Of a stretch of DNA of 64,000 bases, positions 27,011-58,289 are shown in pieces (position 1 is the first letter of the stretch; each line of letters starts with the position of its first letter). A program made the position numbers and the translations under genes. Source of the DNA: Alphaproteobacteria bacterium (GTDB lineage: Bacteria > Pseudomonadota > Alphaproteobacteria > Micropepsales > Micropepsaceae). Location of the stretch: positions 1 through 64,000 of the forward strand of contig JANXXU010000038.1 of NCBI GenBank assembly GCA_025350465.1. Reading direction: 5' to 3'. The notes under the pieces were generated by a model. The model was given only the letters and a program-made list of their open reading frames with translations. It searched no databases and was not told the DNA's origin.

Positions 27011-27086
27011 TCGGCGTGCTCCGTCAGCGATGCAATCGGTCGAGCGATACAAGGTTTGAAAGCGCGACCGGGGTCAACAACGACAA

Positions 27087-30850: not shown

Positions 30851-30886
30851 GATCGGATCTCCGGCGCACGCCAGCTTTCAAATCCT

Positions 30887-30935
30887 CCCTCTCCCCTTCC
30901 ATTTTCGGGAAGGGAGAGGGCCGGGGTGAGGGATG
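30887..30935 (-). repeat. GC-rich dispersed repeat, copy A (inverted relative to copy B)
   Basis: CCCTCTCCCCTTCC and GGAAGGGAGAGGG form a hairpin, followed by CCGGGGTGAGGGATG. Read on the minus strand it matches copy B at 31014-31064 over about 50 bases with few differences. This type of CCCTCACCCC...CCCTCTCCC element recurs in many proteobacterial genomes as an intergenic repeat. Confidence 0.7.
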
Positions 30936-31013
30936 GGCGTCGCGCGCAGTTAGACAAGGAGATTGTCGCGCCGACGTCCATGCAATCCTTCTTGTCCGTA
31001 CACTGCACAGCGA

Positions 31014-31064
31014 CCATCCCTCACCCCCGACCCCTCTCCCTTCCAAAGATGAAGGGGCGAGGGG
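31014..31064 (+). repeat. GC-rich dispersed repeat, copy B
   Basis: The copy begins CATCCCTCACCCCCGACC, with CCCTCTCCCTTCC pairing imperfectly with GAAGGGGCGAGGGG. It is the inverted partner of 30887-30935, with about 78 bases of unique sequence between. It stands just after the SDR stop codon, so it may also terminate that transcript. Confidence 0.7.
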
Positions 31065-31070
31065 ATTCTT

Positions 31071-31832: not shown

Positions 31833-31933
31833 GGCGCGCCGTCTCCTTGATCCCGAAAATAGTCTAAGCTTCCGGTGACGGACAACAAACAGCGCTTTTG
31901 TGTGCGCGCATTGAACTTGTGGGAACGCAGCTC

Positions 31934-32743: not shown

Positions 32744-32753
32744 GGAACATCCG

Positions 32754-33167
32754 ATGCGCATATTGTTGCCGCAGGGTTGGCCGAGGCCGCGCGGATACTC
32801 GAACGGGATCGAGGCCGAAGGAAAGCTCATCTTCGTCGCCGGACAGATCGGTTGGGACAGCGCCGGCAAGTTCGCGACGAGCACTTTCGGCGGCCAATTC
32901 CGCCAGGCGCTGGCGAACACGCTTGCGGTGTTGGAGGAAGCCTCAGCGGGCCCCGAACACGTCACCCGCATGACCTGGTTCATCACCAGCCGTGACGAAT
33001 ATACGGCGGCTCTCGCCGAGCTCGGTGCGGCGTGGAAAGAGCTGATGGGGCCGAATTATCCGGCGATGTCGGTCATCATCGTTTCCGGCCTTGTCGAACG
33101 GGAGGCGAAGATCGAGATCGAAACAACGGCCGTCATCCCGCACCACGAAGCGCGGCACCACACGTGA
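32754..33167 (+). CDS. Rid family (RidA/YjgF-like) protein
   Basis: A 137-residue Rid-fold protein: LIFVAGQIGWDSAGKF, FRQALANTLAVLEEA and the C-terminal KIEIETTAVIP. In RidA imine deaminases an Arg (Arg105 in E. coli numbering) lies in the ARS segment before the last strands. Here the matching segment reads YPAMSVIIV, with Met at that place, so it is not a canonical deaminase. In the 2-aminobenzoyl-CoA pathway an enamine intermediate must lose ammonia, and this protein is a candidate helper. The stop overlaps the monooxygenase start (GTGA). Confidence 0.85.
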   Translation: MRILLPQGWPRPRGYSNGIEAEGKLIFVAGQIGWDSAGKFATSTFGGQFRQALANTLAVLEEASAGPEHVTRMTWFITSRDEYTAALAELGAAWKELMGPNYPAMSVIIVSGLVEREAKIEIETTAVIPHHEARHHT

Positions 33168-38126: not shown

Positions 38127-38334
38127 CGCGGGCGAAGCTATAGAATTCTCGGGACCAGGGCTCGGCAAGATTTACCAACGCGCTTCATGGCGCGCGCCAA
38201 AGGTCACCGTCTGTAAAGAAACTGGACCTATTTGCACGTGAACTTCTGGCTCTTGGGTTCGCGTTCGAGCTGCGTACAGTGCGGGACAGCGCTGCAGAGG
38301 CGTGTTGCGACGAGAGATCACAAGAGAGCAGCAA

Positions 38335-39615
38335 ATGTCGACAACGATGCACTCGCGACAACGTTCACAAAAGCACCCAAGGCTTTACGAGCTGGCTCCA
38401 CTGAGCAAGGAGGGCGTCGATAGGGGTGCGTATTTCAAGCCTGAGCTATTGGAGGAGCTGGTGGCGGGCCGCGACTATGCGCAAGTTCTGGGAGACGGCG
38501 GCCTTTTCGATAGTCTGAAGAAGGCGCTTGAGGATCTTTTGGCACAACGCCAGAGCGCGGCAGAGACGAGCCGGGCGGCGGTATTGAGCGGGCCGCCTCA
38601 AGCGGAGATCGCGACAAGCGTCGCGACGTCGCGCCAGGCGCTGTCGGTGGCGAACAATGGGCTGATGCGCGCGGACGGGGGAGCGGAGAGCCATCGCGAG
38701 GGACCTCAAGGCGTCGATAGCCAGTTCAAGGCGCTATACACGCGCGGTTTTTCGCTGAACGAAATCGAGAACCGGCTGGCCACGCTGTCGGGCGTCGCGC
38801 CGGCGAGCGAAGCGCTGGCGGCAATGGAAAAGCAACTGATCGGCCAAGCGCGGTCATGGCGCGGCCGTGCTCTGGAGATCATGTATCCGATCGTCAGCTT
38901 CGAGTCGCTCAGGGCCAAAACGCGCCTGAGCGATGGCGCTATTTGTCACCGCACCTGCCACTTTGCGCTGGCGCTTCATGCCAGCGGCGCCAAGGAAGTG
39001 CTCGGCATTTGGGTCGAGCATGGATCGCCCGAACAATTCTGGCGCAGCGTCCTTGATGACCTGAGGCAGCGTGGGGCGTCGGATATCCTGATCTTCGTCA
39101 ATGGCGCGCCAAGCTTCCGTGAGGCCGCGGCAGCGGTCTTCCCCAGAGCGCTGGTGCAATCGTGCATCGTGGAGCTGATCCGCGGGTCGCTCGATTTGGC
39201 TTCGTCCAACACGCGTTGGCCGCTGAATTCGGCGCTGAAGAAGATCTACGAGGCGCCGTCGGAGGCTGCCGCCAGAAGTGAATTGGAGACGTTCGAAAGC
39301 GGGGAGTTCGGCAAGCTCTATCCAGCCGTCGCCACGTTGTGGAAACGGCGGTTGAGCGAAATCAGCGCCTTCTTCTCCCTCCCCATCGAGATCCGCAGCG
39401 TCATCACCACGACGTTCGCACGCGAGATCATGCTGCAAAATATCGCGCGCATGCTGCGGCTGAGAGGGGAACTGCCGTCGGACGAGGAAGCGTTGAGCCG
39501 GCTGACATTGGTGGTTCAGGACAGCCAAAAGCTATGGAAGAAGGCGCAGCGGCAATGGCACGCGGCGCGCGCCAAGTTCGCGGCGGTGTTTCCCGACCGC
39601 TTCTTTACTCGATAG
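38335..39615 (+). CDS. IS256/mutator-transposase-derived protein with substituted catalytic residues
   Basis: A 426-residue protein with the overall plan of IS256-family transposases: LLEELVAGRDYAQVLGDGG near the N-terminus, then YPIV, KEVLGIWVE, FWRSVLDDLRQRG, VQSCIV-IRGSL and VITTTFARE. The hallmark residues are altered. The first catalytic Asp position holds Glu190 (SFESL), the second holds Asn256 (FVNGA), and the His of CIVH is Glu; only the third acid (Glu364) remains. There are no stops or frameshifts and I saw no flanking terminal repeats. This suggests a domesticated, non-transposing protein. The ATG at 38335 (GTG at 38302 possible) begins it; the LuxR gene follows after 10 bases. Confidence 0.72.
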   Translation: MSTTMHSRQRSQKHPRLYELAPLSKEGVDRGAYFKPELLEELVAGRDYAQVLGDGGLFDSLKKALEDLLAQRQSAAETSRAAVLSGPPQAEIATSVATSRQALSVANNGLMRADGGAESHREGPQGVDSQFKALYTRGFSLNEIENRLATLSGVAPASEALAAMEKQLIGQARSWRGRALEIMYPIVSFESLRAKTRLSDGAICHRTCHFALALHASGAKEVLGIWVEHGSPEQFWRSVLDDLRQRGASDILIFVNGAPSFREAAAAVFPRALVQSCIVELIRGSLDLASSNTRWPLNSALKKIYEAPSEAAARSELETFESGEFGKLYPAVATLWKRRLSEISAFFSLPIEIRSVITTTFAREIMLQNIARMLRLRGELPSDEEALSRLTLVVQDSQKLWKKAQRQWHAARAKFAAVFPDRFFTR

Positions 39616-44056: not shown

Positions 44057-44662
44057 CTAAGAGGGAATCTCGGCCTTGGCGATTCCATTCAAGAAGGTGT
44101 TGACGGCGAGGTCGGCGATCTTCGCAGGCTTGGCGCGGCCGGACGGATCGAGCCAGGTGTGCATCCAGTTGATCATGCCAAAATAGAGCATGACGGCCGG
44201 CCGTCGCAACGGCGAGCGACCGGACAGATCCGGACGAATCTCAACGAGAACTTTGTCGACGATGTCGAGGAGCCGGCGTTGAATGCAGACGATGATCCGC
44301 CGCTGCGCTTCCGGCAAATTTCCAAGTTCGTTCAGCAACACTCGTTGGCGCGGCGCCGCGCCGAGATAGAGGCGCATGAATTCCCGCGTCATGGCTCGAA
44401 GCTTGTCGGCCGCGCCGATCGGTCGGGCCGCGATTTCTTCGGCCACGTCGAGAAGGGCTTTGACGTGGGAATGCATCACGTCGAAGAGAATTTGTTCTTT
44501 GGACTCATAGTAGTGATAAAGGAGCGACTTCGACGTCTTGCAGGCGCCCGCCAAGTCAGCGATCGAGGTGCCAAGGAACCCGCGGCTGGCGAACAGGTCG
44601 GCGGCACGCTCGACGATGCCTTCGCGGCGTTGCGCGTAGTCGATCGCCTGCGTTCGTGCCAT
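44057..44662 (-). CDS. paaR: TetR family repressor, PaaR-like
   Basis: A 201-residue TetR/AcrR regulator. The HTH is TSIADLAGACKTSKSLLYHYYESKEQIL, and the C-terminal ligand domain (LLDVAEEIAARP, LYLGAAPRQRVLLNELGNLP) resembles the TetR-type PaaR repressors of phenylacetate catabolism that sense phenylacetyl-CoA. It is divergent from the E1 gene, with an operator-like dyad at 44775-44788 between them. Two similar dyads stand before the paaG and paaA operons. Assignment as PaaR rests on context, the domain pattern and these shared sites; the ligand is inferred. Confidence 0.8.
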   Translation of the reverse strand: MARTQAIDYAQRREGIVERAADLFASRGFLGTSIADLAGACKTSKSLLYHYYESKEQILFDVMHSHVKALLDVAEEIAARPIGAADKLRAMTREFMRLYLGAAPRQRVLLNELGNLPEAQRRIIVCIQRRLLDIVDKVLVEIRPDLSGRSPLRRPAVMLYFGMINWMHTWLDPSGRAKPAKIADLAVNTFLNGIAKAEIPS

Positions 44663-44771
44663 TCACTTTATCTCCAAACCTTCAAGTCGTTTCAGCGGCG
44701 CTCGGCGCCTCTGGGAGGTCAAGCCACACGTCGATCATCGACAAGATGTCAGAAATCAAAGCAGTTGAAAA

Positions 44772-44800
44772 TTGACCGTCCATTCGGTTTATTAATAAGG
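44772..44800 (+). promoter_or_regulatory. PaaR-like operator/promoter of the E1-E2-aminotransferase operon
   Basis: The dyad ACCGTCCATTCGGT (44775-44788) overlaps a -35-like TTGACC (44772-44777). It is followed by an AT-rich stretch TTTATTAATAA in the -10 area. Over the first 23 bases it matches the paaA site at 54619 with only two differences. Confidence 0.72.
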
Positions 44801-44808
44801 CAACATCC

Positions 44809-46914
44809 GTGGCGAAGAGCAACTCCCTCATGACGGCCGCGATGCGACGTACCAAGCATGCCTCCGCGAACGAACCCGACGAAGCCCATGACTGGCGGCG
44901 CGTCGCTTATTTGACGCTCGTCTCGAGGGCCTTGGACGAGATCGAAGAGAAAACGCTCGTGCCGGAGCGCAAGATTTTCTATCAATTTTCGGCCCGCGGC
45001 CACGACGTAGCGCAGATTCTCTTGGGCTTGCAGCTCACCCATGCGCGGGACGCGATCTGCGGCTATTACCGCTCGCGGCCCGTGCTCTTGACCTTGGGTG
45101 TTCCAATTGCCGACGCGCTCGGCTCTTCGATGGCGCGCGCCGGCGGCTATTCGGATGGGCGCGATATCGGCGCCGTTTTCAACTACCCAAACCTCAACGG
45201 ACCGTGCGCATTGCCGATGTGCGGCGGCGTGGGCGCGCAATTCACGCCGTCGGCCGGGTGGGCGCAAGCGCTCGAATATCGTCGCGCCGTCTTGAACGAT
45301 CCCGAATGCGCGGGGGCGATCGCCGTCGCACTCGGCGGCGACGCGTCGGTTGCGACCAATGGCTTCTGGTCGGCGTTGACGATGGCGACGACGCTGGGCC
45401 TACCGATCCTGTTCTTCATCGAAGACAATGGCTACGGGATTTCGGTGCCGTCTCATTTGCAGACGCCAGGCAGCGACATCGCGGCCAATCTGAAAAGCTT
45501 CAAAGGTTTGCACGTGCTCTCGGGCGACGGGACAGAGCCGGGCGAAACGGCGCGCCTGATCAAGGATGCCGTTGGGCATGTTCGCGAGCGGCGCGCGCCG
45601 GCGCTGCTTCGGCTGACGGTGCCGCGCTTGGAAGGCCATTCGTTTCAGGATACACAGACCTATAAATCGGCCGCGACGATTGCCTCGGAAAACGTGCGCG
45701 ATCCGCTGCCGAAACTGCGCGACTATATTGTTCCAGCCGTGTTCGACGGAGCCGAATGGGAACGTATTGCCGCCGACGCCAAGACGGCGGCCGAGTCGGC
45801 GCGGCGCGAAGCCGAGGCGCGGCCGGTCGCGAACGTCGAGCGCACGATGCGGCATGTCTTTTTCGAGGATGAACTGCAGACGAAAGGCGGGCAGTGGGCA
45901 GAAGGCTTCGTGGCGCCGAGAGCGAGCGCGCAGCCCGAGCCCGAAGGCCAGCGGATCAATATGGTCACAGCGATCCGCCGTACACTGGACCATGAGCTGG
46001 CGATCAATCCGCGCGTGCTGGTTTTCGGCGAAGACGTGGGGCCTAAGGGCGGTGTGCACGCGGTCACGCTTGGTCTGCAGGAAAAATTCGGCGCGGCGCG
46101 CGTCTTCGATACCAGCCTCTCCGAGGAAGGCATTATCGGCCGGGCCGTCGGCATGGCGTTGGCCGGCCTTGTGCCCGTCCCTGAAATTCAGTTTCGCAAA
46201 TACGCCGACCCCGCGACCGAGCAACTGAACGATTGCGGGACCATGCGCTGGCGCACGAACAACCGCTTTGCCGCGCCCATTGTCGTTCGCATGCCGATCG
46301 GCTTCTTCAAATGCGGCGACCCGTGGCACAGCCAAACCAACGAGGTGCAGTTCGTGCACGCTCCGGGATGGAAAGTGGCGGTGCCGTCGAACGCGGAGGA
46401 CGCGGTCGGCCTGTTGCGGGCCAGTCTGCGCGGCAATGATCCCGTCGTCTTCTTCGAGCATCGGGCAATGCTCGACGCGGCTTGGGCGCGCAGGCCTTAT
46501 CCCGGCGACGATTTCGTGCTGCCGTTCGGCGTAGCGCGGCGCGTGCGGGAAGGCGACAATCTGACGATCGTGAGCTGGGGCGCGATGGTGGAGCGTTGCG
46601 AGGAAGCGGCGACGGATCGTTCCGTCGAAATCCTCGACCTGCGCACGTTGATGCCATGGGACCGCACGGCGGTCCTTGAATCGGTCAAGCGCACGCGGCG
46701 CTGCCTTGTCGTGCATGAGGATTTGATGAGCGGCGGCTTCGGTGCGGAAATCGCGGCGGTCGTTGCCGGCGAATGCTTCCTCGATCTCGACGCGCCGGTT
46801 TCGCGCCTCGCCATGCCCGATATTCCGAGCCCCCATAATCCCGCGCTCATGGAATGGGCGCTGCCGTCGGTCGACGGCATTCGCCGCAAGATCGACGCCT
46901 TGATCGGATTTTGA
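44809..46914 (+). CDS. 2-oxoacid dehydrogenase E1, alpha and beta subunits fused
   Basis: A 701-residue fusion. Residues about 25-340 are E1-alpha, with the ThDP motif GGDASVATNGFW...EDNGYGIS near 177-211. Residues about 384-700 are E1-beta (MVTAIRRTLDHEL, FGEDVGPKGG, TSLSEEGIIGRAVGMAL, FRKYADPATEQL). The pattern is that of branched-chain or aryl 2-oxoacid dehydrogenases. Together with the adjacent E2, the aromatic-type aminotransferase and the shared PaaR-like operator, phenylpyruvate is a likely substrate, giving phenylacetyl-CoA directly. The start is GTG at 44809, with ATG at 44830 as the alternative. It abuts the E2 gene with no gap. No E3 gene is in the window. Confidence 0.88.
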   Translation: MAKSNSLMTAAMRRTKHASANEPDEAHDWRRVAYLTLVSRALDEIEEKTLVPERKIFYQFSARGHDVAQILLGLQLTHARDAICGYYRSRPVLLTLGVPIADALGSSMARAGGYSDGRDIGAVFNYPNLNGPCALPMCGGVGAQFTPSAGWAQALEYRRAVLNDPECAGAIAVALGGDASVATNGFWSALTMATTLGLPILFFIEDNGYGISVPSHLQTPGSDIAANLKSFKGLHVLSGDGTEPGETARLIKDAVGHVRERRAPALLRLTVPRLEGHSFQDTQTYKSAATIASENVRDPLPKLRDYIVPAVFDGAEWERIAADAKTAAESARREAEARPVANVERTMRHVFFEDELQTKGGQWAEGFVAPRASAQPEPEGQRINMVTAIRRTLDHELAINPRVLVFGEDVGPKGGVHAVTLGLQEKFGAARVFDTSLSEEGIIGRAVGMALAGLVPVPEIQFRKYADPATEQLNDCGTMRWRTNNRFAAPIVVRMPIGFFKCGDPWHSQTNEVQFVHAPGWKVAVPSNAEDAVGLLRASLRGNDPVVFFEHRAMLDAAWARRPYPGDDFVLPFGVARRVREGDNLTIVSWGAMVERCEEAATDRSVEILDLRTLMPWDRTAVLESVKRTRRCLVVHEDLMSGGFGAEIAAVVAGECFLDLDAPVSRLAMPDIPSPHNPALMEWALPSVDGIRRKIDALIGF

Positions 46915-48093
46915 ATGAGCACCACAGACATCGTGGCGCCAACCGAGCAGGAAGGCACCAAGGCCGTCGTCAGAAGCTGGCTGAAGAATGTGGGCGATGC
47001 CGTGCGGGTCAACGATCCGGTGGTCGAACTGGAAACCGACAAGGTTGCGGTCGAGATCGCCGCGACAAGCGAGGGCGTCCTTTCCGAAATTCTGCTGGAG
47101 ACAGGCGCCGAAGTGGAACCGGGCACGGTGCTTGGGCGCATCGCGGATCGAGCAGCCGGCGCAAAGGCAGCGGGCGCGCAGGCGCCGACAGCACCTTCAC
47201 AGCCGCGGACGCAGCCACAGAAAGCGGCGGCCGACGCGGCCCACATCGCACCGGGCATTCGCCGCCTGCTCTCAGATCACGGTCTCGAACCGCAAGATGT
47301 TCCGACGCCCGGCGGCAAGCTGACGCGTGAAGATGTGCAGGCGGAGGTCGAGCGTCGGGCGAAGGGCAGTGCGCGGTCAACCATGAGCGGCGTTACGCGA
47401 TTGCCGCACGATTCGATGCGCAAGCGGATCGCCGAACACATGACGCACTCCGTGCAGGTCGCGCCGCATGTGACCGCGATGTTCGAAGCGAATCTGAGCG
47501 CCATCATCGCGCATCGCGAGGCGCACAAGGCCGCCTTCGAGCGGCAAGGCGCAAACCTGACCTTCACCGCATATTTCGTGGCGGCCTCGGCAGCGGCGAT
47601 GAAATCCGCCCCCGCGGTCAACGGCCGATGGTTTGAGGATCGCATCGAGACTTATGACGACGTCAATGTCGGCGTAGGAACGGCGCTCGGCGAAAAGGGC
47701 TTGATCGTGCCGGTGATCAATCGCGTGCAAACACTGTCGCTCCTCGATATCGCGCACCGTCTCACCGAGCTGACGGAAAAAGCGCGGGCGGGAAAGTTGG
47801 CGCCGGCCGACGTGCGCAACGGCACGTTTTCGATTTCCAATCACGGCGTTTCGGGTTCGCTCGTGGCGGCTCCCATCATCATCAACCAGCCTCAATCGGC
47901 GATCCTCGGCATCGGTAAAGTGCAGAAGCGTGCGGTGGTGCGCGAGGCGAGCGGTGCGGACGAAGTTGCGATCCAGCCGATGGCCTATGTCACACTGACG
48001 ATCGATCATCGCGTGGTCGATGCATTCCAGACGAATGCTTGGCTGACGCGCTTCGTCGACGTTTTGGAGACTTGGCCCAAGGAGGCTAGTTGA
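46915..48093 (+). CDS. Dihydrolipoyl acyltransferase E2 of a 2-oxoacid dehydrogenase complex
   Basis: A 392-residue E2. An N-terminal lipoyl domain has the lipoylated Lys43 in ETDKVAVEI. An Ala/Pro/Gln-rich hinge follows, then a peripheral-subunit-binding domain (IAPGIRRLLSDHGLEPQDV). The catalytic domain contains the active-site His in TIDHRVVDA, with Ala in place of the more usual Gly after DHRVVD. It would transfer the acyl group made by the fused E1 to CoA. The ATG immediately follows the E1 stop. Lipoamide dehydrogenase must be encoded elsewhere. Confidence 0.92.
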   Translation: MSTTDIVAPTEQEGTKAVVRSWLKNVGDAVRVNDPVVELETDKVAVEIAATSEGVLSEILLETGAEVEPGTVLGRIADRAAGAKAAGAQAPTAPSQPRTQPQKAAADAAHIAPGIRRLLSDHGLEPQDVPTPGGKLTREDVQAEVERRAKGSARSTMSGVTRLPHDSMRKRIAEHMTHSVQVAPHVTAMFEANLSAIIAHREAHKAAFERQGANLTFTAYFVAASAAAMKSAPAVNGRWFEDRIETYDDVNVGVGTALGEKGLIVPVINRVQTLSLLDIAHRLTELTEKARAGKLAPADVRNGTFSISNHGVSGSLVAAPIIINQPQSAILGIGKVQKRAVVREASGADEVAIQPMAYVTLTIDHRVVDAFQTNAWLTRFVDVLETWPKEAS

Positions 48094-48117
48094 GCGTAGG
48101 CCGGCCGCAGAAGTTGA

Positions 48118-49386
48118 ATGAGCGTGGAACAAGAAAATGAAAGTCAGAGGCAACGCTTAGTGCAAGGATCTCGCAGAACGCCGAACGCGCGCACCGGCAC
48201 ATCGCAGCACGGCCTCTTCAACGCGCTAAAGAAGCAGCCGCCCGACCCTCTGCTGTCGCTTATCGCCAAATTGCGCGATGATCCGCGTCAGGAAAAGATC
48301 GATCTCGGCGTCGGCGTCTATCGCGACGCGAGCGGCATTACACCCGTGATGCATTGCGTTAAGGAAGCCGAGCGCCTGTTGCTGGCGATGCAGGCGACCA
48401 AATCCTACCTCGGCTCGGAAGGCGACGTTGGTTTCGTCAATCTCTTGAAGCCGATGGTTTGCGGCGAGGCGTTCGCGCGCGATCCACGCCTCGTCGGGGT
48501 GCAGACGCCCGGCGGCACCGGCGCGCTGCGTCTTGCCGCCGATGTGATCGCCGCATCCGTCGCCCGCACGAAAATCTGGCTCGGTCTGCCAAGCTGGCCA
48601 AATCACGAACCCATTTTTTCGGCTGCCGGGCTGACGATCCAGACCTATCGCTCATTCGACGTCACGACGCAGCAGCTGCTCTTCGACGACACAATAGCTG
48701 CATTGAAGAGTGCTCAGCCGGGCGACGTCGTTCTGCTCCACGGTTGCTGCCACAATCCTACGGGTTCGGATTTTGACGTCGCGCAGTGGGCCACGCTCGC
48801 GAAGTTGATGGCGACGCGCGACCTGGTTCCGTTGCTCGATTTTGCGTATCAGGGTTTCGGACGCGGGTTTGAGCCCGACGCAACGGGGATTGGCATTGTT
48901 CTCGAACATGTCGGCGAGGCGCTCGTCGCATACTCCTGCGACAAGAACTTTGGCCTTTATCGCGAACGGACCGGCGCATTGTTTGCCTTCACGCAAGATG
49001 CGCCGGCGGCCGATCGCGTGTACTCGAACATGCTTTCCGCGGCTCGTGCTAATTGGGCGATGCCGCCCGATCACGGCGCTGCGGTCGTTCGGCTGATCCT
49101 AGAATCCGACGAATTGCGCCGCGACTGGCACCAGGAGTTGGAAGACATGCGCAGCCGGGTCGCGTCCGTTCGCCAAGAACTCGCCGCTGCAGATTCCCTT
49201 TTTGCGCCCTTGGTTCTTCAATGCGGCATGTTCTCTTTGTTGCCGATCGATTCCGTAGTCATTGCCCGACTGCAAGCCGAGCACGGCATCTACATGGCGG
49301 GATCGGGACGTATCAATGTTGCGGGCATTCGGGGCGGCGATGTCGAACGTCTCGTGCGGGCAATGCGCGGCGTCAGAGGAAGATAA
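48118..49386 (+). CDS. Aromatic/aspartate aminotransferase (class I, TyrB/AspC type)
   Basis: A 422-residue PLP enzyme of the AspC/TyrB branch. It shows CCHNPTGSDF (Asn213), the Asp241/Tyr244 pair in DFAYQGFGRG, the Schiff-base Lys276 in SCDKNFGLYRERTGA, and the substrate-carboxylate Arg in GSGRINVAG. The N-terminus is ~30 residues longer than usual. In this operon, conversion of phenylalanine (or tyrosine) to the arylpyruvate that feeds the E1/E2 complex is the likely role. It follows E2 by 24 bases and converges on the P450 gene with only one base between. Confidence 0.87.
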   Translation: MSVEQENESQRQRLVQGSRRTPNARTGTSQHGLFNALKKQPPDPLLSLIAKLRDDPRQEKIDLGVGVYRDASGITPVMHCVKEAERLLLAMQATKSYLGSEGDVGFVNLLKPMVCGEAFARDPRLVGVQTPGGTGALRLAADVIAASVARTKIWLGLPSWPNHEPIFSAAGLTIQTYRSFDVTTQQLLFDDTIAALKSAQPGDVVLLHGCCHNPTGSDFDVAQWATLAKLMATRDLVPLLDFAYQGFGRGFEPDATGIGIVLEHVGEALVAYSCDKNFGLYRERTGALFAFTQDAPAADRVYSNMLSAARANWAMPPDHGAAVVRLILESDELRRDWHQELEDMRSRVASVRQELAAADSLFAPLVLQCGMFSLLPIDSVVIARLQAEHGIYMAGSGRINVAGIRGGDVERLVRAMRGVRGR

Positions 49387-49387: not shown

Positions 49388-50605
49388 CTAGCGCAACGCA
49401 AGAGGCATGCTGGTAAAGCCGCGGAAACGCGCGCGCCTGCCGCGCTCGGGTTTAGCCGCGAGTTCATAGCGAGGAAACCGGGCGAGAAATTGCCCGAGCG
49501 CGATGCGCGCCTCGAGCCGCGCCACATTCATTCCGGCGCATTGGTGCACGCCGGCGCCGAACGCCAGATGGCGATTTGGATTGCGGGAAATATCGAAGTG
49601 GTCTGGCTCCAAGAAAGCTTCGGGATCTCGGTTGGCCCCGCCGATGCACAATGTCACGAAGGTTCCAGCAGAGAGCGCGGCACCGCCGACCATTGCATCG
49701 CGCGTTGCGACACGATTGCCCAGTTGGTTCGAACTTTCATAGCGCAGTACCTCTTCGATGGCCGTGCGCAGAAGATCGGGGTCAGCGATAAGGCGAGCGC
49801 GTTGGTCCGGGAAGCGCGCGAACAACTCTATGGCGTTGCCGATCAGATTTGTCGTTGTCTCGTGCCCGGCGTTGAGCAGAAAGACACAATTTTCGATCAG
49901 TTCGGCTTCACTGAGCGGTTCTCCTTCGCTCAAGATCAGCCGCGTCAGCACGTCGTGCTCCGGATCGCCGGGCTTGCGCTTGCGCTCGGCGACGAGTTGA
50001 CCGAGATAGGCGTGGAAGCTGGCGAGCGCTTGTTCACCGCGCGCAAGCGCCTCCGCGGACAGTGCCGGTTCAAGCGCGCCAAGGATCGCCAGCGACCAGC
50101 CGCGCAATGGGGCGCGATCGGAATCGGGAACTGCCAGAAGATCGCCGATCACTTCGACGGGAATCGCGCCGGCGAAATCTGCAATCGCATCCATGTTTCC
50201 GCGCCCGTCGACCTGATCGAGCAAGCGACCGACCAAGCGCACGAGCTTCGGCTCCAACGGTGCCAGAGCTTTCGGCACCATGGCGCCCAGGATCGTGCGC
50301 CGCACGCGCGCGTGATATGGCGCATCGTTGAACACGAGGCTTGTCGTGTGATGACGGAAGAGGCGCGAGCCAATGCCGTATTTCGGGCCGAACTCCGCTT
50401 TCTTGTCGGAGCTGAACGTGGCGGCGTCTTGATAGACGGATAGCACGTCGCGATAGCGGGTTAGAAAAACGGCGCCGTCGGGCAGATGCTTCGCGGGCGC
50501 ATGTTCTCGCAGCGCACAATAGGTGGGGAACGGATCGGAATAGAAATTGTCCGGCAAATTCTTCAGGTCGAAGGTTCGCGCAATCTCCTCCGCGGCGGCC
50601 GTCAT
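49388..50605 (-). CDS. Cytochrome P450
   Basis: A 405-residue soluble bacterial P450. The I-helix motif is AGHETTT (246-252), the ExxR is EEVLRY (284-289), and the heme-binding loop is FGAGVHQCAG with Cys356 as the thiolate ligand. The ATG at 50605 overlaps the stop of the upstream hydrolase gene (ATGA); longer in-frame starts are rejected. No ferredoxin or ferredoxin reductase lies next to it. It is the last gene of paaG-paaZ-hydrolase-P450, an unexpected partner for phenylacetate degradation. The substrate is unknown. Confidence 0.93.
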   Translation of the reverse strand: MTAAAEEIARTFDLKNLPDNFYSDPFPTYCALREHAPAKHLPDGAVFLTRYRDVLSVYQDAATFSSDKKAEFGPKYGIGSRLFRHHTTSLVFNDAPYHARVRRTILGAMVPKALAPLEPKLVRLVGRLLDQVDGRGNMDAIADFAGAIPVEVIGDLLAVPDSDRAPLRGWSLAILGALEPALSAEALARGEQALASFHAYLGQLVAERKRKPGDPEHDVLTRLILSEGEPLSEAELIENCVFLLNAGHETTTNLIGNAIELFARFPDQRARLIADPDLLRTAIEEVLRYESSNQLGNRVATRDAMVGGAALSAGTFVTLCIGGANRDPEAFLEPDHFDISRNPNRHLAFGAGVHQCAGMNVARLEARIALGQFLARFPRYELAAKPERGRRARFRGFTSMPLALR

Positions 50606-51360
50606 GCGCGGTTGCTCTCGAGCCAATTCCAAACGGTACTTGCGTTTTCGACCATCGCGTTGTGACTGAGGCCCGCCAGATCGGCGGCAGCGGGGTCGAA
50701 AATGCGAAGTTGATCGCGCGTGACCATGCGATCGGTTTCGCCACGGGCGAGATGGACCGGCGCGTGGGCTGCGTCGATCAGCGTGCGCATGGGCGGCGCT
50801 CCAATGGAGGCTGTTGCCGGGTCGGACGCGAGGCGCCAACCGCTTTCGCCTTTGACGATGCCAGCCTGCGCAGCCGGCGAATTCGCCTCGATATGTCCGG
50901 CAAGCCCGGAGGCTTTCAAATAGCGGGTGACGGCGTCTTCTTTGGTGTCGAGCCAACGCACCGGTGCGGCGGCCATTTCGCCGAGCCTGGTTAACTCGTC
51001 CTGCGTCCAGACGACTTTGATCCCAAGGCCAAAGACGCGAGTCGGCGCGAGGCCAAACCATCCCGACGCAAGTGCAAGTGCCACGACGCCACCCATCGAG
51101 TGCCCGACGACGACAATCTCGTTCCAGCCGCCTGAACTCAGCACAAGCTCGGCTACGTCCGCGGCATGAAGGCCGAGCGCGTAGCTTGCCGCGTGCGGCG
51201 AGGCGCCATGGCCGCGCAGATCGGGCGCGATCCAACTGCCCGGCCAGCGCGCGCTCACCGTGCTGAGCATCGGTTGCCAGACGTGCCGGGTCGCACCGAG
51301 CCCGTGCAGCAGCACAAGCAGGCGTCCGCCTTCGCCGCCGCGATCCGACTCAAGCTTCAT
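50602..51360 (-). CDS. Alpha/beta hydrolase
   Basis: A 252-residue alpha/beta-hydrolase fold. The oxyanion segment is LLVLLHGLGATRHVW, the nucleophile is Ser88 in GHSMGG, and a probable acid/base pair lies in GETDRMV and LSHNAM near the C-terminus. It could be an esterase, a thioesterase or a C-C hydrolase. It lies 51 bases after paaZ and is translationally coupled to the P450. In this operon, hydrolysis of a stalled CoA thioester or of a P450 product are both possible; neither can be shown by sequence. Confidence 0.82.
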   Translation of the reverse strand: MKLESDRGGEGGRLLVLLHGLGATRHVWQPMLSTVSARWPGSWIAPDLRGHGASPHAASYALGLHAADVAELVLSSGGWNEIVVVGHSMGGVVALALASGWFGLAPTRVFGLGIKVVWTQDELTRLGEMAAAPVRWLDTKEDAVTRYLKASGLAGHIEANSPAAQAGIVKGESGWRLASDPATASIGAPPMRTLIDAAHAPVHLARGETDRMVTRDQLRIFDPAAADLAGLSHNAMVENASTVWNWLESNRA

Positions 51361-51411: not shown

Positions 51412-53436
51412 TCAAACCGCATTCATCGTCAGCAATTCGTAGGTCGCGACCGGCTCGTTGTTCTGGTTGGTCAGAGCGACTTGCCAGCGCACCTCGCCGT
51501 ATTTGTCATTGCGCAGCGATTTGGATTTTGCGGTGAGCTGCACCTTGATTGCATCGCCCGGTTTTACCGGCTTCAAGAACCGTAGATTGTCCAAGCCGTA
51601 GTTCGCGAGCACCGGCCCCGGTGCCGGGTCGACGAAGAGCCCGGCGGCAAACGACAAGAGCAGATAGCCGTGTGCCACGCGCCCGCCGAAAAGCGGATTG
51701 GCAGCGGCCGCTTTCTCATCCATATGCGCGTAGAAATTATCGCCTGTGAAATGGGCGAAATGCTCGATATCCTCGAGCGTGACCGTCCGCGCATCGGTGA
51801 TGAGCGTCTTGCCAAGTTCCAGCTCGCCGAAGCGCAAGCGGAAGGGATGCGGACCGTCGCGCATCTCCGGTGCACCGCTTATCCAATTGCTCGTCACCGA
51901 GGCGAGCATCCGCGGAGAACCCTGCAGAGCTGTGCGCTGCATATAATGGAATACACCGCGCAGGCCGCCCAGTTCTTCTCCGCCGCCGGCACGACCCGGC
52001 CCGCCGTGGACGAGCGCCGGAAGCGGCGAGCCATGGCCGGTTGATTCTTTGGCGCAATCGCGATCGACGATGAGCACGCGTCCGTGAAATGCGCCGGCGC
52101 CTTCCAACACTTGCCGCGCGACCGTTGGATCGTTGGTGAAGAGCGACATCACCAACGAACCTTTGCCGCGATTGACGAGGGAGACCGCTTCAGGAACGTC
52201 GCGATAGGGCATCAGCGTCGCGACCGGCCCGAAGGCTTCGATCTCGTGAACGCGCGTTGCTTTCGCCGGTTGATCGCAGCGCAGCAGCACCGGTGATATG
52301 AAGGCACCCTTTTCGGCGTCGGCGCCGCGTACGTTCGCTTTCTGTGGGTCGCCGAACACGATGCGCGCCTCGCGCGACAATTCTTCGATCTTGGCGCGCA
52401 CATCGTCGCGTTGAGATCTGCTGACCAGCGCTCCCATCGTCACGCCTTCGCCGCGTGGATCGCCGACGACGACTTCGGCAAGCGCCTTCTTGAGGCTTTC
52501 TTCCGTCGCATCCATCGCCGATGCGGGCACGAAGGCGCGCCGGATCGCCGTGCATTTCTGGCCGGCTTTGACCGTTATTTCGCGCACGACCTCTTTGACG
52601 AAGAGATCGAATTCGGGTGTTCCGGGCGCGGCGTCCGGTCCGAGCATCGCGGCGTTGAGCGAATCGCGCTCAGCGATGAAGCGTACGCTTTCGCGCGCAA
52701 TGACGGGATGACGCGCGAGCTTTTGCGCTGTCTCCGCCGAGCCGGTGAACGAGACCACATCCTGACCGGTCAGATGATCGAAGAGATCGCCGATCGGTCC
52801 CACGATCAGTTGCAAGGCGCCTTTGGGCAGAACATTGGCCTCGATCAGGATGCGAAAGCAGGCTTGCGCCACATACGCGCTCGCCGTCGCAGGCTTCACG
52901 ATCGCGGGCACGCCGGCCAACAGCGTCGGCCCCAATTTTTCGAGCATTCCCCAAACGGGAAAATTGAACGCATTGATGTGAATGGCGGCGCCGTGAAGCG
53001 AGGTCATGACATGCTGGCCGAGGAAGGTGCCGCGTTTGGAAAGTCCTTCCAAAGGGCCGTCCAGCAGCATCGTGTCGTTGGGAAGTTCACGCCTTCCCTT
53101 GGAGGCGTAGGCGAGCAGAGTTCCGGCGCCACCTTCGATGTCGACCCAACCGTCAGATTTCGTCGCGCCTGTTTCGTAGGAGAGTTCGTAGAGTTCTTCC
53201 TTCCGGGCCATTACCGCGTCGCCTAGCGACTTCAGAATTTTCGCGCGGTCATGGAACGTCATCGCGCGAAGAGCGGGTCCGCCAACGCGGCGCGCGTAGT
53301 CAATCACGCCGGCGAAATCGCGAATGCCGGCGCCGACTTGCGCGATCATCTCGCCTGTCACTGCCGAGTGGATATCCGTCAGAGTTCCGGTGGGCGCGAC
53401 CCAGTTATGGTGGGCGTAGCTTTGAAGGGGCTTCAT
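51412..53436 (-). CDS. paaZ: PaaZ: oxepin-CoA hydrolase / 3-oxo-5,6-didehydrosuberyl-CoA semialdehyde dehydrogenase
   Basis: A 674-residue fusion with the known PaaZ order. The N-terminal aldehyde dehydrogenase has Glu256 in FIAERDSLN and catalytic Cys295 in GQKCTAI, the same numbering as the E. coli enzyme. The C-terminal MaoC-type hydratase (from about 530) has the Asp566/His571 dyad in [11 protein letters not shown]. It opens the oxepin ring made by PaaG and oxidises the resulting aldehyde. It is downstream of paaG by 18 bases. Confidence 0.96.
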
Positions 53437-53454: not shown

Positions 53455-54246
53455 TCAGCTGCCCGTGAATTTAGGGCTGCGTTTCTCGGTGAAGGCGGCG
53501 ACACCTTCGCGATAGTCGTTGGAGCGTCCGAGTTCGCGCTGCAGGTCGCGCTCGAGATCGAGTTGCTCGTCGAGGCTTGAAAGCCAACCGCGCCGCATTG
53601 CCACCTTGATCGCGGCAAGGCCTTTGGTCGGCCCGTTCGCAAGGCGCTCGACCAATTTGTCGGTTTCCGTCTTGAGTTGGTCGTCTTCGATCACGCGCCA
53701 GATCAATCCCCAGCTTTCGGCCTTCTCGGCGCTCAGAGGTTCGCCGGTCAGAGCAAGACCAAGGGCACGCGCATGGCCAGCAAGCCGCGGCAGGATCCAG
53801 GTGCCGCCGGAATCCGGCACGAGACCGATGTTCGAAAACGATTGAATAAAGCGCGCGCTCTTCGCGGCGATCACGATGTCGGCGGCAAAGGCGATATTCG
53901 CGCCAGCGCCGGCGGCGACGCCGTTGACGGCGCAGACGACCGGCTTGCGCAAGGCGATCAGGCGACGGATCAAAGGATTGTAGCGGTTCTCGAGAGACTC
54001 GCCCAAGTCAACGCCGTCGCCGCCAGGCACCACCGCGCGATCGGAAAGATCTTGTCCTGCGCAGAATCCACGGCCCGCGCCGGTGATGAGCAGCACGCGT
54101 ACATCGGCGCGCTTCTCGACGGCGGAAAGCGCCTCCGCCACCTCAGTGTGCATCTGCACCGTGAAGCTGTTCAGGCGGTCGGGGCGGTTGAGGGTGAGGC
54201 GCGCGGCGCCATGCGCGATGTCAAACAAGATGGTCTCGTAGGGCAT
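53455..54246 (-). CDS. paaG: PaaG: 1,2-epoxyphenylacetyl-CoA isomerase
   Basis: A 263-residue crotonase closely resembling PaaG (length 262 in E. coli). Diagnostic segments are CAGQDLSDRAV and AVNGVAAGAGANIAFAADIV. The active-site loop LVPDSGGTWILPRLAG carries an Asp, followed by GEPLSAEKAESWGLIW. It converts the ring epoxide made by PaaABCE to oxepin-CoA. It is the first gene of the minus-strand operon, with a PaaR-like dyad 55-80 bases upstream. Confidence 0.94.
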   Translation of the reverse strand: MPYETILFDIAHGAARLTLNRPDRLNSFTVQMHTEVAEALSAVEKRADVRVLLITGAGRGFCAGQDLSDRAVVPGGDGVDLGESLENRYNPLIRRLIALRKPVVCAVNGVAAGAGANIAFAADIVIAAKSARFIQSFSNIGLVPDSGGTWILPRLAGHARALGLALTGEPLSAEKAESWGLIWRVIEDDQLKTETDKLVERLANGPTKGLAAIKVAMRRGWLSSLDEQLDLERDLQRELGRSNDYREGVAAFTEKRSPKFTGS

Positions 54247-54300: not shown

Positions 54301-54326
54301 CTTAAATAGATCGAGCGGACGATCAA
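54301..54326 (-). promoter_or_regulatory. PaaR-like operator upstream of paaG
   Basis: Read on the minus strand, TTGATCGTCCGCTCGATC aligns with the sites at 44772 and 54619. The dyad ATCG-N6-CGAT replaces ACCG-N6-CGGT with matching changes in both arms, so symmetry is kept. It ends 55 bases before the paaG start codon. Confidence 0.6.
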
Positions 54327-54677: not shown

Positions 54678-55676
54678 GTGTACACAACTGAATTGGACGA
54701 TAACAAAAAGAAACCGGCGACGGTGCCGAGCGCGCCGGAGGATCCTGTGCGGCTCGCAGCTTTTGAAGCGCGCGTGGCCGCGGATGATTTCATCGAGCCG
54801 AAGGACTGGATGCCCGAGGCCTATCGCAAGACATTGATCCGTCAGATTTCACAGCACGCCCATTCCGAAATCGTCGGCATGCTGCCGGAAGGAAACTGGA
54901 TCACGCGCGCGCCAAGTCTGCGGCGCAAGGCGGTGTTGCTTGCCAAAGTGCAGGACGAAGGCGGCCACGGGCTTTATCTCTATGCCGCGGCCGAGACGCT
55001 GGGAACGAGCCGCGACGAGATGATCGAGGCGCTGCATTCGGGCCGCGCGAAATATTCGACGATCTTCAACTACCCGACATTGACCTGGGCCGATATCGGC
55101 GCAATCGGCTGGCTGGTCGACGGCGCGGCGATCATGAATCAAGTGCCGCTGCAGCGCACATCATACGGGCCTTACGCGCGCGCGATGGTGCGCATCTGCA
55201 AGGAAGAGAGCTTCCACCAGCGCCAAGGTTACGAGATCATGATGACGCTGGCCGCCGGCACGGCCGAGCAGAAACGCATGGCGCAAAGCGCGTTGGACCG
55301 ATGGTGGTGGCCGTCGCTGATGATGTTCGGCCCGCCCGACGACAATTCGCCCAATTCGGCACAGTCGATGCGTTGGCGCATCAAGCGCGAAACCAACGAT
55401 CAGATCCGCCAGAAATTCATCGACGTCACCGTACCTCAGGCGGAAGCGATCGACCTGCAAGTTCCCGACCCCGCGCTCAAATGGAACGAGACGCGCGGCT
55501 CCTATGATTTCGGCGAGATCGACTGGGAGGAATTCTATGCGGTGGTGCGTGGCGAAGGTCCGCTCGCGAAGGAGCGCATGAACGCGCGCGTGAAGGCGTG
55601 GGAAGAGGGGGCTTGGGTGCGCGAAGCGGCCATGGCTCATGCAGACAAGCGCCGAGTGCGCGCGGCGGCGGAGTGA
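54678..55676 (+). CDS. paaA: PaaA: phenylacetyl-CoA epoxidase catalytic subunit
   Basis: A 332-residue ferritin-like di-iron oxygenase subunit of the PaaABCE complex, which adds an epoxide to the ring of phenylacetyl-CoA. Iron-ligand segments are [27 protein letters not shown] and [13 protein letters not shown]. The start is GTG at 54678. It leads a tight operon paaABCDE. Confidence 0.97.
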
Positions 55677-55680
55677 AGCG

Positions 55681-55965
55681 ATGAGCAAGGAATGGCCGCT
55701 GTGGGAAGTGTTCGTGCGGGCCAAGAACGGACTCGCGCATAAGCACGTTGGTAGCGTGCATGCCGCAGACGGGCGCATGGCGATCGAAGCCGCGCGCGAT
55801 ACTTACACGCGGCGCATGGAAGGCATCAGCCTTTGGGTCGTACCTTCGGCGTCGATCGTCGCATCGGACCCGAACGATGCGGGCGAATTGTTCGAGCCGG
55901 CAGCGGATAAGGTCTACCGTCATCCGACATTCTATTCGATCCCCGACCACATCAAGAACATCTGA
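55681..55965 (+). CDS. paaB: PaaB: phenylacetyl-CoA epoxidase structural subunit
   Basis: A 94-residue bridging subunit with the family segments WPLWEVFVRAKNGLAHKHVGS and AIEAARDTYTRR. The ATG at 55681 lies four bases after the paaA stop; a longer in-frame start inside paaA is rejected. Its stop overlaps the paaC start (TGATG). Confidence 0.96.
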   Translation: MSKEWPLWEVFVRAKNGLAHKHVGSVHAADGRMAIEAARDTYTRRMEGISLWVVPSASIVASDPNDAGELFEPAADKVYRHPTFYSIPDHIKNI

Positions 55966-56720
55966 TGAGCGACAAAGCCCTTTTCGAATATGCCTGCCGT
56001 CTCGGCGACGACAGCCTCATTCTCGGCCAACGTCTGTCGGAATGGTGCGGACATGCGCCGATGCTGGAGATCGATCTCTCGCTCGCCAATATCGGTCTCG
56101 ATCTGATCGGCCAGGCGACTCATTTCCTCAAATTGGCCGGCGATGTCGAGGGGAAAGGCCGCGATGCCGACGCTCTTGCCTTTCGCCGCGACGTGCTCGA
56201 TTTCCGCAACTGCCTGCTGGTCGAACAGCCGAACGGTGATTTCGCGCAAACGATCGCACGCCAATTCCTGTTCTCGAACTGGCAGGAATTGTTATTTCGG
56301 GACCTCACGCGCTCGCGCAACGAGACCATTGCGGCGATTGCGGCCAAGGCCGTGAAGGAGGTCGCCTATCATACGCGCTTCGCAGATGAATGGATGGTTC
56401 GCCTGGGCGACGGCACCGACGAAAGCCGTGGTCGCATCGCCGCGGGGCTCGACTGGATGTGGCGGTTCGTCGATGAACTGTTTGAAGTCGATGCGGCCAT
56501 AGCGCCGCTGATTGCGGCGGGAATCGGTGCCGATGTTCGCGCATTGCGAACGGAGTGGGACGCGCGTGTTGCCAAGACATTGGCCGATGCAACCCTGGAA
56601 CTACCAAAGCCGCGACGTGCGACGCTAGGTGGGCGAGCTGGACACCATTCCGAGCACCTGGGGCATCTGCTGTCTGAAATGCAGTTCCTGCAGCGCGCCT
56701 ATCCAGGCGCGACATGGTGA
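55965..56720 (+). CDS. paaC: PaaC: phenylacetyl-CoA epoxidase structural subunit
   Basis: A 251-residue helical subunit, a non-catalytic paralogue of PaaA. Typical segments are LGDDSLILGQRLSEWCG, LDLIGQATHFLKLAG and KAVKEVAYHTRFADEWMVRLGDGT. It overlaps paaB by one base and paaD by seven. Confidence 0.96.
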   Translation: MSDKALFEYACRLGDDSLILGQRLSEWCGHAPMLEIDLSLANIGLDLIGQATHFLKLAGDVEGKGRDADALAFRRDVLDFRNCLLVEQPNGDFAQTIARQFLFSNWQELLFRDLTRSRNETIAAIAAKAVKEVAYHTRFADEWMVRLGDGTDESRGRIAAGLDWMWRFVDELFEVDAAIAPLIAAGIGADVRALRTEWDARVAKTLADATLELPKPRRATLGGRAGHHSEHLGHLLSEMQFLQRAYPGATW

Positions 56721-57202
56721 GCGCTTTGTCCGTCACCGTTTCGCTACGGGATCGCGTGCTCGAGATCCTGAGCGCTGTGCATGATCCCGAGATTCCCTGC
56801 ATCTCAGTCGTCGATCTCGGCATCGTACGCGCGGTGCGCGATGGCGCGGTCGTGATCACGCCGACCTATACCGGCTGTCCGGCGACGATCGCCATCGAGG
56901 CAAGCATCCGCGCCGCACTCGATCGCGCGGGGCTTGCGGATATGAAAATCGAAACCACCCTCTCGCCGCCCTGGACGACGGATTGGATCAGCGAAAAGGG
57001 GAGGGAAGAGCTCCGGATCTACGGCATTGCGCCACCCCCACGGGGTGCCGCCAAGCAATCGCTGCGCGAGCAGGCCGCGAAATGCCCGCGTTGCGGATCG
57101 TCGAGCACCGAAGAGCTCAGCCGGTTCGGCTCGACACCGTGCAAGGCGCTGCACCGCTGTCTGTCGTGCCGCGAGCCGTTCGACCTGTTCAAGTGCCACT
57201 GA
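56714..57202 (+). CDS. paaD: PaaD: Fe-S assembly factor for the epoxidase
   Basis: A 162-residue protein with an N-terminal MIP18/DUF59 domain (VHDPEIPCISVVDLGIV, TPTYTGCPA) and a C-terminal zinc-ribbon-like pair (CPRCGS and CLSC). It is needed for maturation of the epoxidase complex in other bacteria. It overlaps paaC by seven bases, and paaE follows after four. Confidence 0.95.
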   Translation: MVSALSVTVSLRDRVLEILSAVHDPEIPCISVVDLGIVRAVRDGAVVITPTYTGCPATIAIEASIRAALDRAGLADMKIETTLSPPWTTDWISEKGREELRIYGIAPPPRGAAKQSLREQAAKCPRCGSSSTEELSRFGSTPCKALHRCLSCREPFDLFKCH

Positions 57203-57206
57203 CGAC

Positions 57207-58289
57207 ATGTCGATCAACGCAGGATTCCATTCGCTCAAGATCGCCGATGTCCGCCGCGAGACCGCGGATTCGGTTTCCATTCGCTTTGAAATTCCACCAT
57301 CTCTGAAAGAGGCCTTCGCCTTCGAGGCGGGTCAGCATTTGACGTTGAAGGCAGAAATCGGCGGCGAGGATATCCGGCGCACCTATTCCGTCTGCGTCTC
57401 GCCGTTCGATGACGAGATTCGCATTGCGGTCAAGCAAATGCCGGCCGGAAAGTTTTCGTCATGGGCGAATGCCGCGCTTGCCGTCGGCCAATCGATCGAC
57501 GTTCTGCCTCCGATGGGTCGTTTCGTTTTGCCGCGCGGCAATGGACCGGCACCGCACTACGTCGCGCTGTCCGGCGGTTCGGGCATTACGCCGGTCATTT
57601 CGATTTTGAAGACCGTGCTGCAGACGAAACCGCAAAGCCGCTTCACGTTGCTGTACGGCAATCGCGACAGCGCCTCGATCATGTTTCTCGAAGAGCTGGC
57701 GGGGCTCAAGAACCGCTATCTGGATCGGCTCGAGGTCTATCATTTCCTCGAGAACGAGGCCGAGGAGATCGAGCTTTTCAACGGCAGACTCGATCGTGCC
57801 AAATGCGAGGAAGTTCTCTCTACGCTCGTCGACGTGAAGGCGAGCGACGCGTTCTTCATCTGCGGCCCCGGGCCGATGATGGATGCCGCCGAAGGCGTGC
57901 TTCGCGCGCGCGGCGTGGCGGCCGAGAGCATCTCCATCGAACGGTTTACGACGAGCGCGTTGTCGGCCGAGCAAATCGCGCGCAATGAGGCGCTGCAACA
58001 AAAGGCGGCCGGAACGACGCTCTCAATCGTACTCGACGGCCGCCGGGCAAAGGTCAGTTTCGATGCCGCCAAAGGAAACATCTTGGAGAGCGTGCAGGCG
58101 GCGGGCTTTGCGGCGCCCTATGCCTGCAAGAGCGGTGTTTGCACGACCTGCCGGGCAAAGGTGATCTCGGGCACCGTCACCATGAAGAAGAATTACGGCC
58201 TTACCGAGCAGGAGGTGGCGCAAGGCTATGTGCTCACCTGTCAGGCTGTGCCTACGAGCGATCAGGTATCGTTGAGTTATGACGCTTAG
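57207..58289 (+). CDS. paaE: PaaE: phenylacetyl-CoA epoxidase reductase
   Basis: A 360-residue reductase that passes NADPH electrons to PaaA. It has an N-terminal FAD domain (RTYSVCVSP), an NAD(P) domain (LSGGSGITPVISILK, FFICGPGPMMDA) and a C-terminal plant-type [2Fe-2S] domain (CKSGVCTTCRAKV and a final Cys in LTCQA). The ATG at 57207 is chosen; an in-frame start at 57027 lies within paaD. It ends the operon and converges on the gene at 58313. Confidence 0.97.
   Translation: MSINAGFHSLKIADVRRETADSVSIRFEIPPSLKEAFAFEAGQHLTLKAEIGGEDIRRTYSVCVSPFDDEIRIAVKQMPAGKFSSWANAALAVGQSIDVLPPMGRFVLPRGNGPAPHYVALSGGSGITPVISILKTVLQTKPQSRFTLLYGNRDSASIMFLEELAGLKNRYLDRLEVYHFLENEAEEIELFNGRLDRAKCEEVLSTLVDVKASDAFFICGPGPMMDAAEGVLRARGVAAESISIERFTTSALSAEQIARNEALQQKAAGTTLSIVLDGRRAKVSFDAAKGNILESVQAAGFAAPYACKSGVCTTCRAKVISGTVTMKKNYGLTEQEVAQGYVLTCQAVPTSDQVSLSYDA

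Follow-up and report, generated by a model that had tools for sequence, protein, structure and literature searches.

In the usual scheme of aerobic phenylalanine breakdown by way of phenylacetyl-coenzyme A (phenylacetyl-CoA), the route runs over free phenylacetate and the ligase PaaK. In Phaeobacter, Ior1 makes phenylacetyl-CoA from phenylpyruvate with no need of PaaK, according to the accessible part of PMC5577590, and the accessible part of PMC7497051 describes this bypass but does not name Ior1. For Streptomyces pristinaespiralis, the available sections of PMC7089894 suggest that a pyruvate dehydrogenase (PDH)-like complex, PglB/PglC, takes phenylpyruvate to phenylacetyl-CoA. The PDH-like complex of ripostatin synthesis (Fu et al. 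2017, as cited in the available sections of PMC5490192) decarboxylates phenylpyruvate, and the phenylacetyl group stays bound. Here we analyse a stretch of 64,000 nucleotides (the window) from an alphaproteobacterium of the family Micropepsaceae (assembly GCA_025350465.1, contig JANXXU010000038.1, positions 1 to 64,000), in which genes for the fused E1 alpha/beta and the E2 of a 2-oxoacid dehydrogenase complex, for a TyrB/AspC-type aminotransferase and for a TetR-family regulator stand beside paaABCDE and paaGZ. This gene content, read from the DNA letters alone in an original prediction, was confirmed by Pfam and NCBIfam profiles. The complex is very probably a dedicated phenylpyruvate dehydrogenase, composed of E1, E2 and a shared E3, that would give phenylacetyl-CoA without PaaK. 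Below we show the identity of the genes, the sharing of operators, the co-occurrence and linkage of E1 with paa genes and the absence of a recognisable PaaK; which substrate, product and inducer the route has, and in which direction it runs, is our inference.

We surveyed 96 genomes of the family, 60 of them with a completeness of 90% or more and a contamination of 5% or less, with thresholds of E<=1e-100 for E1, E<=1e-80 for paaA and E<=1e-90 for paaK. E1 was found in 15 genomes and paaA in 16, and 14 carried both (Fisher p = 7e-14, uncorrected for kinship). In the sole E1 genome that gave no paaA match (G037), a fragment of paaA is present where a contig ends. In a class-wide sample paaA was present in 58 of 389 genomes and E1 (E<=1e-180) in 5, all of them among the 58 (p = 6e-5); this search scored two candidates per genome, and 5/389 may be an undercount. 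A contig scan for relatives of E1 yielded at least 594 pattern matches, 580 of which encoded relatives, and the best 80 of these 580 loci (numbered with an L below) were kept, their E1s being 69-81% identical to that of the window. Ten of the 80 were recognised as family members and set aside, and 50 of the genomes behind the other 70 were tested for paaA and paaK. paaA was found in 49 of these 50, the exception being a metagenome-assembled genome (L082).

The window belongs to a 4.06-Mb draft genome in 52 contigs that is 98.3% complete. The original prediction had noted that the window holds no paaK and had called for a search of the remaining genome, where nothing scored above 25 bits against the PaaK model TIGR02155 (cut-off 646); the genome as a whole has no paaK-family ligase above cut-off. 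Within the family, 8 genomes gave a paaK match, one of them scoring above the curated cut-off, and each of the 8 belongs to the 15 E1 genomes; seven family genomes, including that of the window and its three E1-bearing congeners, carry E1 and paaA without paaK. Outside the family nine of the tested E1 genomes were free of paaK (L085, L099, L115, L125, L127, L128, L130, L135 and L151); L125 and L130 are metagenome-assembled, and the other seven are isolate records, many of them drafts.

Linkage was scored in the 80 kept loci. paaA, paaC or paaZ lay within the fetched stretch of E1 in 42 of them, and an aminotransferase homologue in 28. Outside the ten family loci 35 of 70 were linked, and 29 of the 50 that had full 10-kb flanks. 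The linked loci are spread over Hyphomicrobiales (11 linked, 12 not), Sphingomonadales (10 linked, 2 not, 4 unresolved), Caulobacterales (3 linked), Rhodospirillales, Acetobacterales and Hyphomonadales (2 linked each), and Parvularculales and Burkholderiales (1 linked each). On a FastTree tree of the fused E1s the linked or unlinked state switches at least eight times.

Comparison of the intergenic regions before E1 (44770) and paaA (54617) revealed the common pattern AATTGACCG(T/A)CCATTCGG(T/G)TTATTA. The window contains only these two matches to the 25-mer consensus at up to three mismatches, and 100 shuffles gave none; the scan is a uniqueness check only, because the pattern was derived from those same two sites. 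A weaker copy precedes paaG (sites of the TTGAYCGWCCRYTCGG type are expected by chance 0.71 times per window at up to two mismatches). Operator copies of one type, as claimed from the letters alone, are thus present, near-identical over 25 bp before E1 and paaA. Conservation was assessed with a 20-base core at up to six mismatches in the upstream regions of the window and its family relatives, with two further E1 loci at contig ends, L054 and L068, left out. The core was found upstream of E1 in 10 of 13 cases, of paaA in 10 of 12 and of paaG in 9 of 11 (in L056 paaG and paaA share a single site). For comparison, 600 stretches of 280 bases were drawn at random from these loci, true sites possibly among them, and 18 contained the core.

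The operator of PaaR from Burkholderia cenocepacia is given as ACCGACCGGTCGGTT in the accessible part of PMC9493321, and phenylacetyl-CoA releases PaaR according to the accessible parts of PMC9493321 and PMC4424350. When this 15-mer was scanned against 14 relative loci, it occurred at one or two mismatches before E1 in four (L059, L060, L062 and L063) and before paaA in six (L053, L055, L059, L060, L063 and L065); L056 has a PaaR-like 15-mer at 5370, away from both genes, and L057, L058, L064, L066 and L067 gave no match at up to three mismatches. We regard the TetR protein as a probable PaaR-type repressor, judging from its Pfam family membership and from operators that resemble those of B. 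cenocepacia PaaR, more closely so in the relatives. Window and relatives taken together, the E1-E2 complex probably belongs to a PaaR-type regulon; we place it there because the sites of the relatives lie one or two mismatches from the PaaR operator, the window copies alone being weak.

At the protein level, the fused E1 has the thiamine-diphosphate domains and the E2 the lipoyl and acyltransferase domains of 2-oxoacid dehydrogenase complexes (Pfam). The fused E1 falls short of the NCBIfam models for PDH E1 (214 bits against a cut-off of 321 for beta, 109 against 411 for alpha). Separate complexes of both common kinds exist in the genome. The operon C21 encodes a PDH whose E1-alpha, E1-beta, E2 and E3 all exceed their NCBIfam cut-offs. 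The operon C11, which answers the earlier call to look for a separate bkd operon, encodes E1-alpha, E1-beta, E2 and E3 of the branched-chain 2-oxoacid dehydrogenase (BCKDH) type; its E3 alone passes the NCBIfam cut-off, and its E1-alpha best matches solved 2-oxoisovalerate dehydrogenase chains (2bp7_A, 572 bits; 1qs0_A of Pseudomonas putida, 568 bits). The alpha half of the fused E1 scores 36.8 bits to 1qs0_A, as against those 568 bits for C11. Because the genome has both kinds separately, PDH or BCKDH was rejected as the leading identity of the complex.

An alignment of 36 E1 sequences (the window and 35 of the 80 kept loci) showed H65, N207, H277, E439 and H507 conserved in 36/36 and D178 of a GGD motif in 32/36, with E in the remaining four; we take these six to be thiamine-diphosphate or catalytic residues. 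Several stretches are invariant: YQFSARGHD from Y58, CGGVG from C138, KCGDPWHS from K501, and QFRKYA from Q461, the last being followed by D (21/36) or E (15/36) and then by P468. Where the fused E1 has YQFSARGHD, CGGVG-Q, QFRKYA-P and KCGDPWHS, the BCKDH-type E1 of the same genome has SFYMKCTGEEA, AGNLAMH, QFADYIYP and IFGGQTHS, at positions that presumably face the substrate or line the pocket in BCKDH. These differences are suggestive of a different substrate, although they do not name it; the segment CGGVGAQ from C138 is nearer the PDH form (GHGIVGAQ) than the BCKDH form. An AlphaFold 2 model of E1 had a mean confidence (pLDDT) of 74.8, with residues 462-519 below 50, and for this reason we base no claim about the substrate pocket on it. 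In structural comparison by VIA-align the top match was 1umb_A (Z 33.2, root-mean-square deviation 2.4, 304 aligned residues), and human PDH 3exe_C reached Z 32.3; the predicted model fits the BCKDH and PDH E1 folds about equally.

Among common 2-oxoacids, phenylpyruvate alone yields the substrate of paaABCDE on oxidative decarboxylation, and aminotransferases of the class encoded by the neighbouring gene can produce it. We propose that the aminotransferase would turn phenylalanine into phenylpyruvate, that the fused E1 would decarboxylate this with thiamine diphosphate and load the phenylacetyl group onto the E2 lipoyl arm, and that E2 would transfer the group to CoA. A host E3 would then reoxidise the lipoate with NAD+ (the genome has at least two lipoamide dehydrogenase genes, and the two dihydrolipoyl dehydrogenases over cut-off lie in C11 and C21). 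The phenylacetyl-CoA would be degraded by PaaABC(D)E, PaaG and PaaZ, and the TetR protein, as a probable PaaR-type repressor released by phenylacetyl-CoA, would join supply and use in one regulon. Formation of phenylacetyl-CoA without free phenylacetate, the core of the original prediction, gains support from the co-occurrence of E1 and paaA, from the linkage to paa genes in several orders and from the shared operators. The coordinates of the cluster are listed in Table 1.

Table 1. Genes and operator copies of the cluster in the window.
Feature	Position	Strand	Basis or remark
TetR-family regulator	44057-44662	-	Pfam TetR_N + TetR_C_24; divergent from E1
Operator copy before E1	44770-44794	+	AATTGACCGTCCATTCGGTTTATTA; near-identical to paaA copy
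Fused E1 alpha/beta	44809-46914	+	701 aa; Pfam E1_dh + Transket_pyr + Transketolase_C
E2 dihydrolipoyl acyltransferase	46915-48093	+	Pfam Biotin_lipoyl + 2-oxoacid_dh
Aromatic amino acid aminotransferase (TyrB/AspC type)	48118-49386	+	PRK09257, 473 bits (NCBIfam cut-off 377)
Cytochrome P450	49388-50602	-	NCBIfam P450 models, all below cut-off
Alpha/beta hydrolase	50602-51360	-	Pfam Abhydrolase_6/_1
paaZ	51412-53436	-	TIGR02278, 1011 bits, over NCBIfam cut-off
paaG	53455-54246	-	TIGR02280, 404 bits, over NCBIfam cut-off
Weaker operator copy before paaG	54311-54326	-	1 mismatch to TTGAYCGWCCRYTCGG
Operator copy before paaA	54617-54641	+	AATTGACCGACCATTCGGGTTATTA
paaA	54678-55676	+	TIGR02156, 523 bits, over NCBIfam cut-off
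paaB	55639-55965	+	TIGR02157, over NCBIfam cut-off
paaC	55965-56720	+	TIGR02158, over NCBIfam cut-off
paaD	56714-57202	+	TIGR02159, over NCBIfam cut-off
paaE	57027-58289	+	TIGR02160, 414 bits, slightly below cut-off 421

Several observations weigh against a dedicated phenylpyruvate dehydrogenase that bypasses PaaK. paaK was present in 41 of the 50 non-family E1 genomes (E<=1e-90; 39 over cut-off), and the complex is therefore not usually a stand-in for PaaK. Two family genomes, G044 (99% complete) and G010 (74% complete), carry paaA without E1 or paaK. In 21 of the 50 non-family loci with full flanks E1 lies more than 10 kb from paaA, paaC and paaZ, and all six full-flank loci from Pseudomonadales are unlinked. 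The operator core was not found upstream of E1 in L057, L064 and L066, nor upstream of paaA in L058 and L064. The E1 and paaA copies of the window differ from the PaaR operator at 3 of 15 positions, at a background of 2.75 sites per 64 kb, and the closest match in the window (two mismatches, 41788) lies inside a TonB-receptor gene and is probably due to chance. The genome further encodes one KorA-type oxidoreductase alpha subunit, generic and its single PF01558 match, and a ligase considered below, or another one, could activate phenylacetate. The bypass as originally predicted is supported, with one correction. The complex appears to be an entry parallel to PaaK and, in some lineages, that of the window included, the only recognisable one, but it is no general replacement, paaK being found with E1 in 41 of 50 genomes outside the family and 8 of 15 within it.

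Two other routes were considered and set aside. A 2-oxoacid:acceptor oxidoreductase acting on phenylpyruvate would have to be the generic KorA-type protein, and could at most be a minor route; a phenylalanine hydroxylase route was dropped, as the genome has no PF00351 match (4-hydroxyphenylpyruvate dioxygenase was not searched for). It is improbable that the complex is an aryl-2-oxoacid dehydrogenase with a wider range or another one, with 4-hydroxyphenylpyruvate, indolepyruvate and the like among its substrates and phenylpyruvate one of several. The PRK09257 aminotransferase family is broad, E1 is not always beside paa genes, and in four loci an MFS protein near E1 is a distant relative of 4-hydroxyphenylacetate permease (248 bits, cut-off 615), all of which such a range would suit; the near-perfect co-occurrence of E1 with the phenylacetyl-CoA epoxidase speaks for the narrower role. 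That the complex is a second branched-chain 2-oxoacid dehydrogenase, left near the paa genes for historical reasons, strikes us as similarly improbable. It would agree with the fold and superfamily of E1. In 44 of the 80 kept loci a gene of an Lrp-type cluster (a label taken from one cluster representative, named by NCBIfam below the model cut-off) lies divergent and at most 1.5 kb upstream of E1. This neighbour fits amino-acid catabolism and in that respect favours the proposed phenylalanine route, and it also suits branched-chain catabolism, for which we take BkdR to be an Lrp-type precedent. Yet a complete BCKDH-type operon, C11, lies elsewhere in the genome, the invariant motifs of E1 are unlike those of the genome's own BCKDH, and both the co-occurrence of E1 with paaA and the sharing of operators would be left unexplained.

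Alternatively, phenylalanine could be converted to free phenylacetate and this to phenylacetyl-CoA by a ligase other than PaaK, E1-E2 having another task. The window holds two candidate genes, one for a benzoate-CoA-ligase-family protein (29276-30850) about 13 kb from the cluster and another AMP-binding gene at 5783-7420. The former lies near the gene for a bifunctional salicylyl-CoA 5-hydroxylase/oxidoreductase-like protein (33032-35491; 1032 bits, slightly below the cut-off of 1078), which suggests another substrate, and such a ligase accounts for neither the co-occurrence of E1 and paaA nor the shared operators. We regard this course as very unlikely, and a phenylpyruvate dehydrogenase as the far better explanation of the locus.

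The E1 stop codon is followed on the very next base by the E2 start, and 24 bases separate E2 from the aminotransferase gene, which is the sole genome match to the PRK09257 family at E<=1e-20; an aminotransferase of a different family is encoded at 25814-27052. The true start of paaE is probably downstream of the called one, as the TIGR02160 profile begins at residue 67. The P450 and alpha/beta hydrolase genes, which like the benzoate-CoA-ligase-family gene had not been mentioned in the original prediction, separate the aminotransferase gene from paaZ. Six relatives (L062, L063, L065, L096, L100 and L113) have the same pair in their paa clusters, and the paa cluster of L053 has the P450 without the hydrolase; a PADLOC scan of the P450 gave no match. 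The E3_binding domain of the window E2 scores 17.6 bits (cut-off 23.7) and appears degenerate; it is clear in the relative L133 (50.1 bits), whose E1 locus adjoins an E3-type gene. Members of the E3-type gene cluster, one of them named by NCBIfam, occur in 10 of the 80 E1 loci. In G044 (locus L071) the paa epoxidase genes and an aminotransferase gene are followed by genes for a cytochrome c, a solute-binding protein and a pyrroloquinoline quinone-type dehydrogenase, perhaps a different feed into phenylacetyl-CoA. Locus L122, in a record named Mycobacterium sp. KBS0706, has E1-E2 and paaA with neighbours common to Inquilinus (L141), and the label may be wrong.

Elsewhere in the window, genes for the benzoate-CoA-ligase-family protein, an enoyl-CoA hydratase and the salicylyl-CoA 5-hydroxylase/oxidoreductase-like protein stand together at 29276-35491. 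The grouping suggests a second CoA-dependent aromatic pathway, whose substrate is, we presume, perhaps 2-aminobenzoate. A Mutator-family transposase gene (38302-39615) lies a few kb upstream of the cluster. Genes for the alpha and beta subunits of a respiratory nitrate reductase are found at 17251-22527, and the gene before them (14458-17238) encodes a protein of 926 aa that contains two MFS stretches.

We think it reasonably likely that phenylpyruvate dehydrogenases that have a fused E1 and are dedicated to catabolism are widespread, and that they give proteobacteria another way into the aerobic phenylacetyl-CoA pathway besides the known one, and in some lineages the sole one. If so, the thioester would keep the energy of the decarboxylation and spare the ATP of the ligase, free phenylacetate and phenylacetaldehyde would be avoided, and amino-acid catabolism would be joined directly to the paa pathway. 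Bacteria without paaK that use the complex as sole entrance would degrade phenylalanine but not added phenylacetate. Surveys based on the ligase would miss such pathways. A 2026 paa census picks gene clusters around the ligase, according to the accessible part of PMC13186573, and would therefore probably overlook ligase-free systems. The fused E1 offers a sequence handle for a group of proteins that matches NCBIfam pyruvate dehydrogenase models only below cut-off.

A search of the literature, with preprints and most subscription journals outside its reach, found no catabolic, paa-linked, lipoate-dependent phenylpyruvate dehydrogenase, and the accessible parts of PMC9239090 and PMC9007349 contain no catabolic phenylpyruvate dehydrogenase complex. 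PaaK has the same product as the proposed complex but makes it from free phenylacetate and ATP. Ior1 is of the indolepyruvate oxidoreductase type, unlike the lipoate-dependent E1/E2/E3 arrangement of the window. PglB/PglC and the ripostatin complex can be likened to the window complex by their descriptions; the former has separate alpha and beta genes and supplies an antibiotic precursor, and the latter is biosynthetic and leaves its product on a carrier protein. None of these three (Ior1, PglB/PglC and the ripostatin complex) combines lipoate dependence with a catabolic role inside a paa regulon. The E1 of BCKDH (P. putida 1qs0, Thermus thermophilus 1umb and human) is like the window E1 in fold and layout, and the window E1 differs from it in having alpha and beta fused in one chain of 701 residues with invariant motifs of its own.

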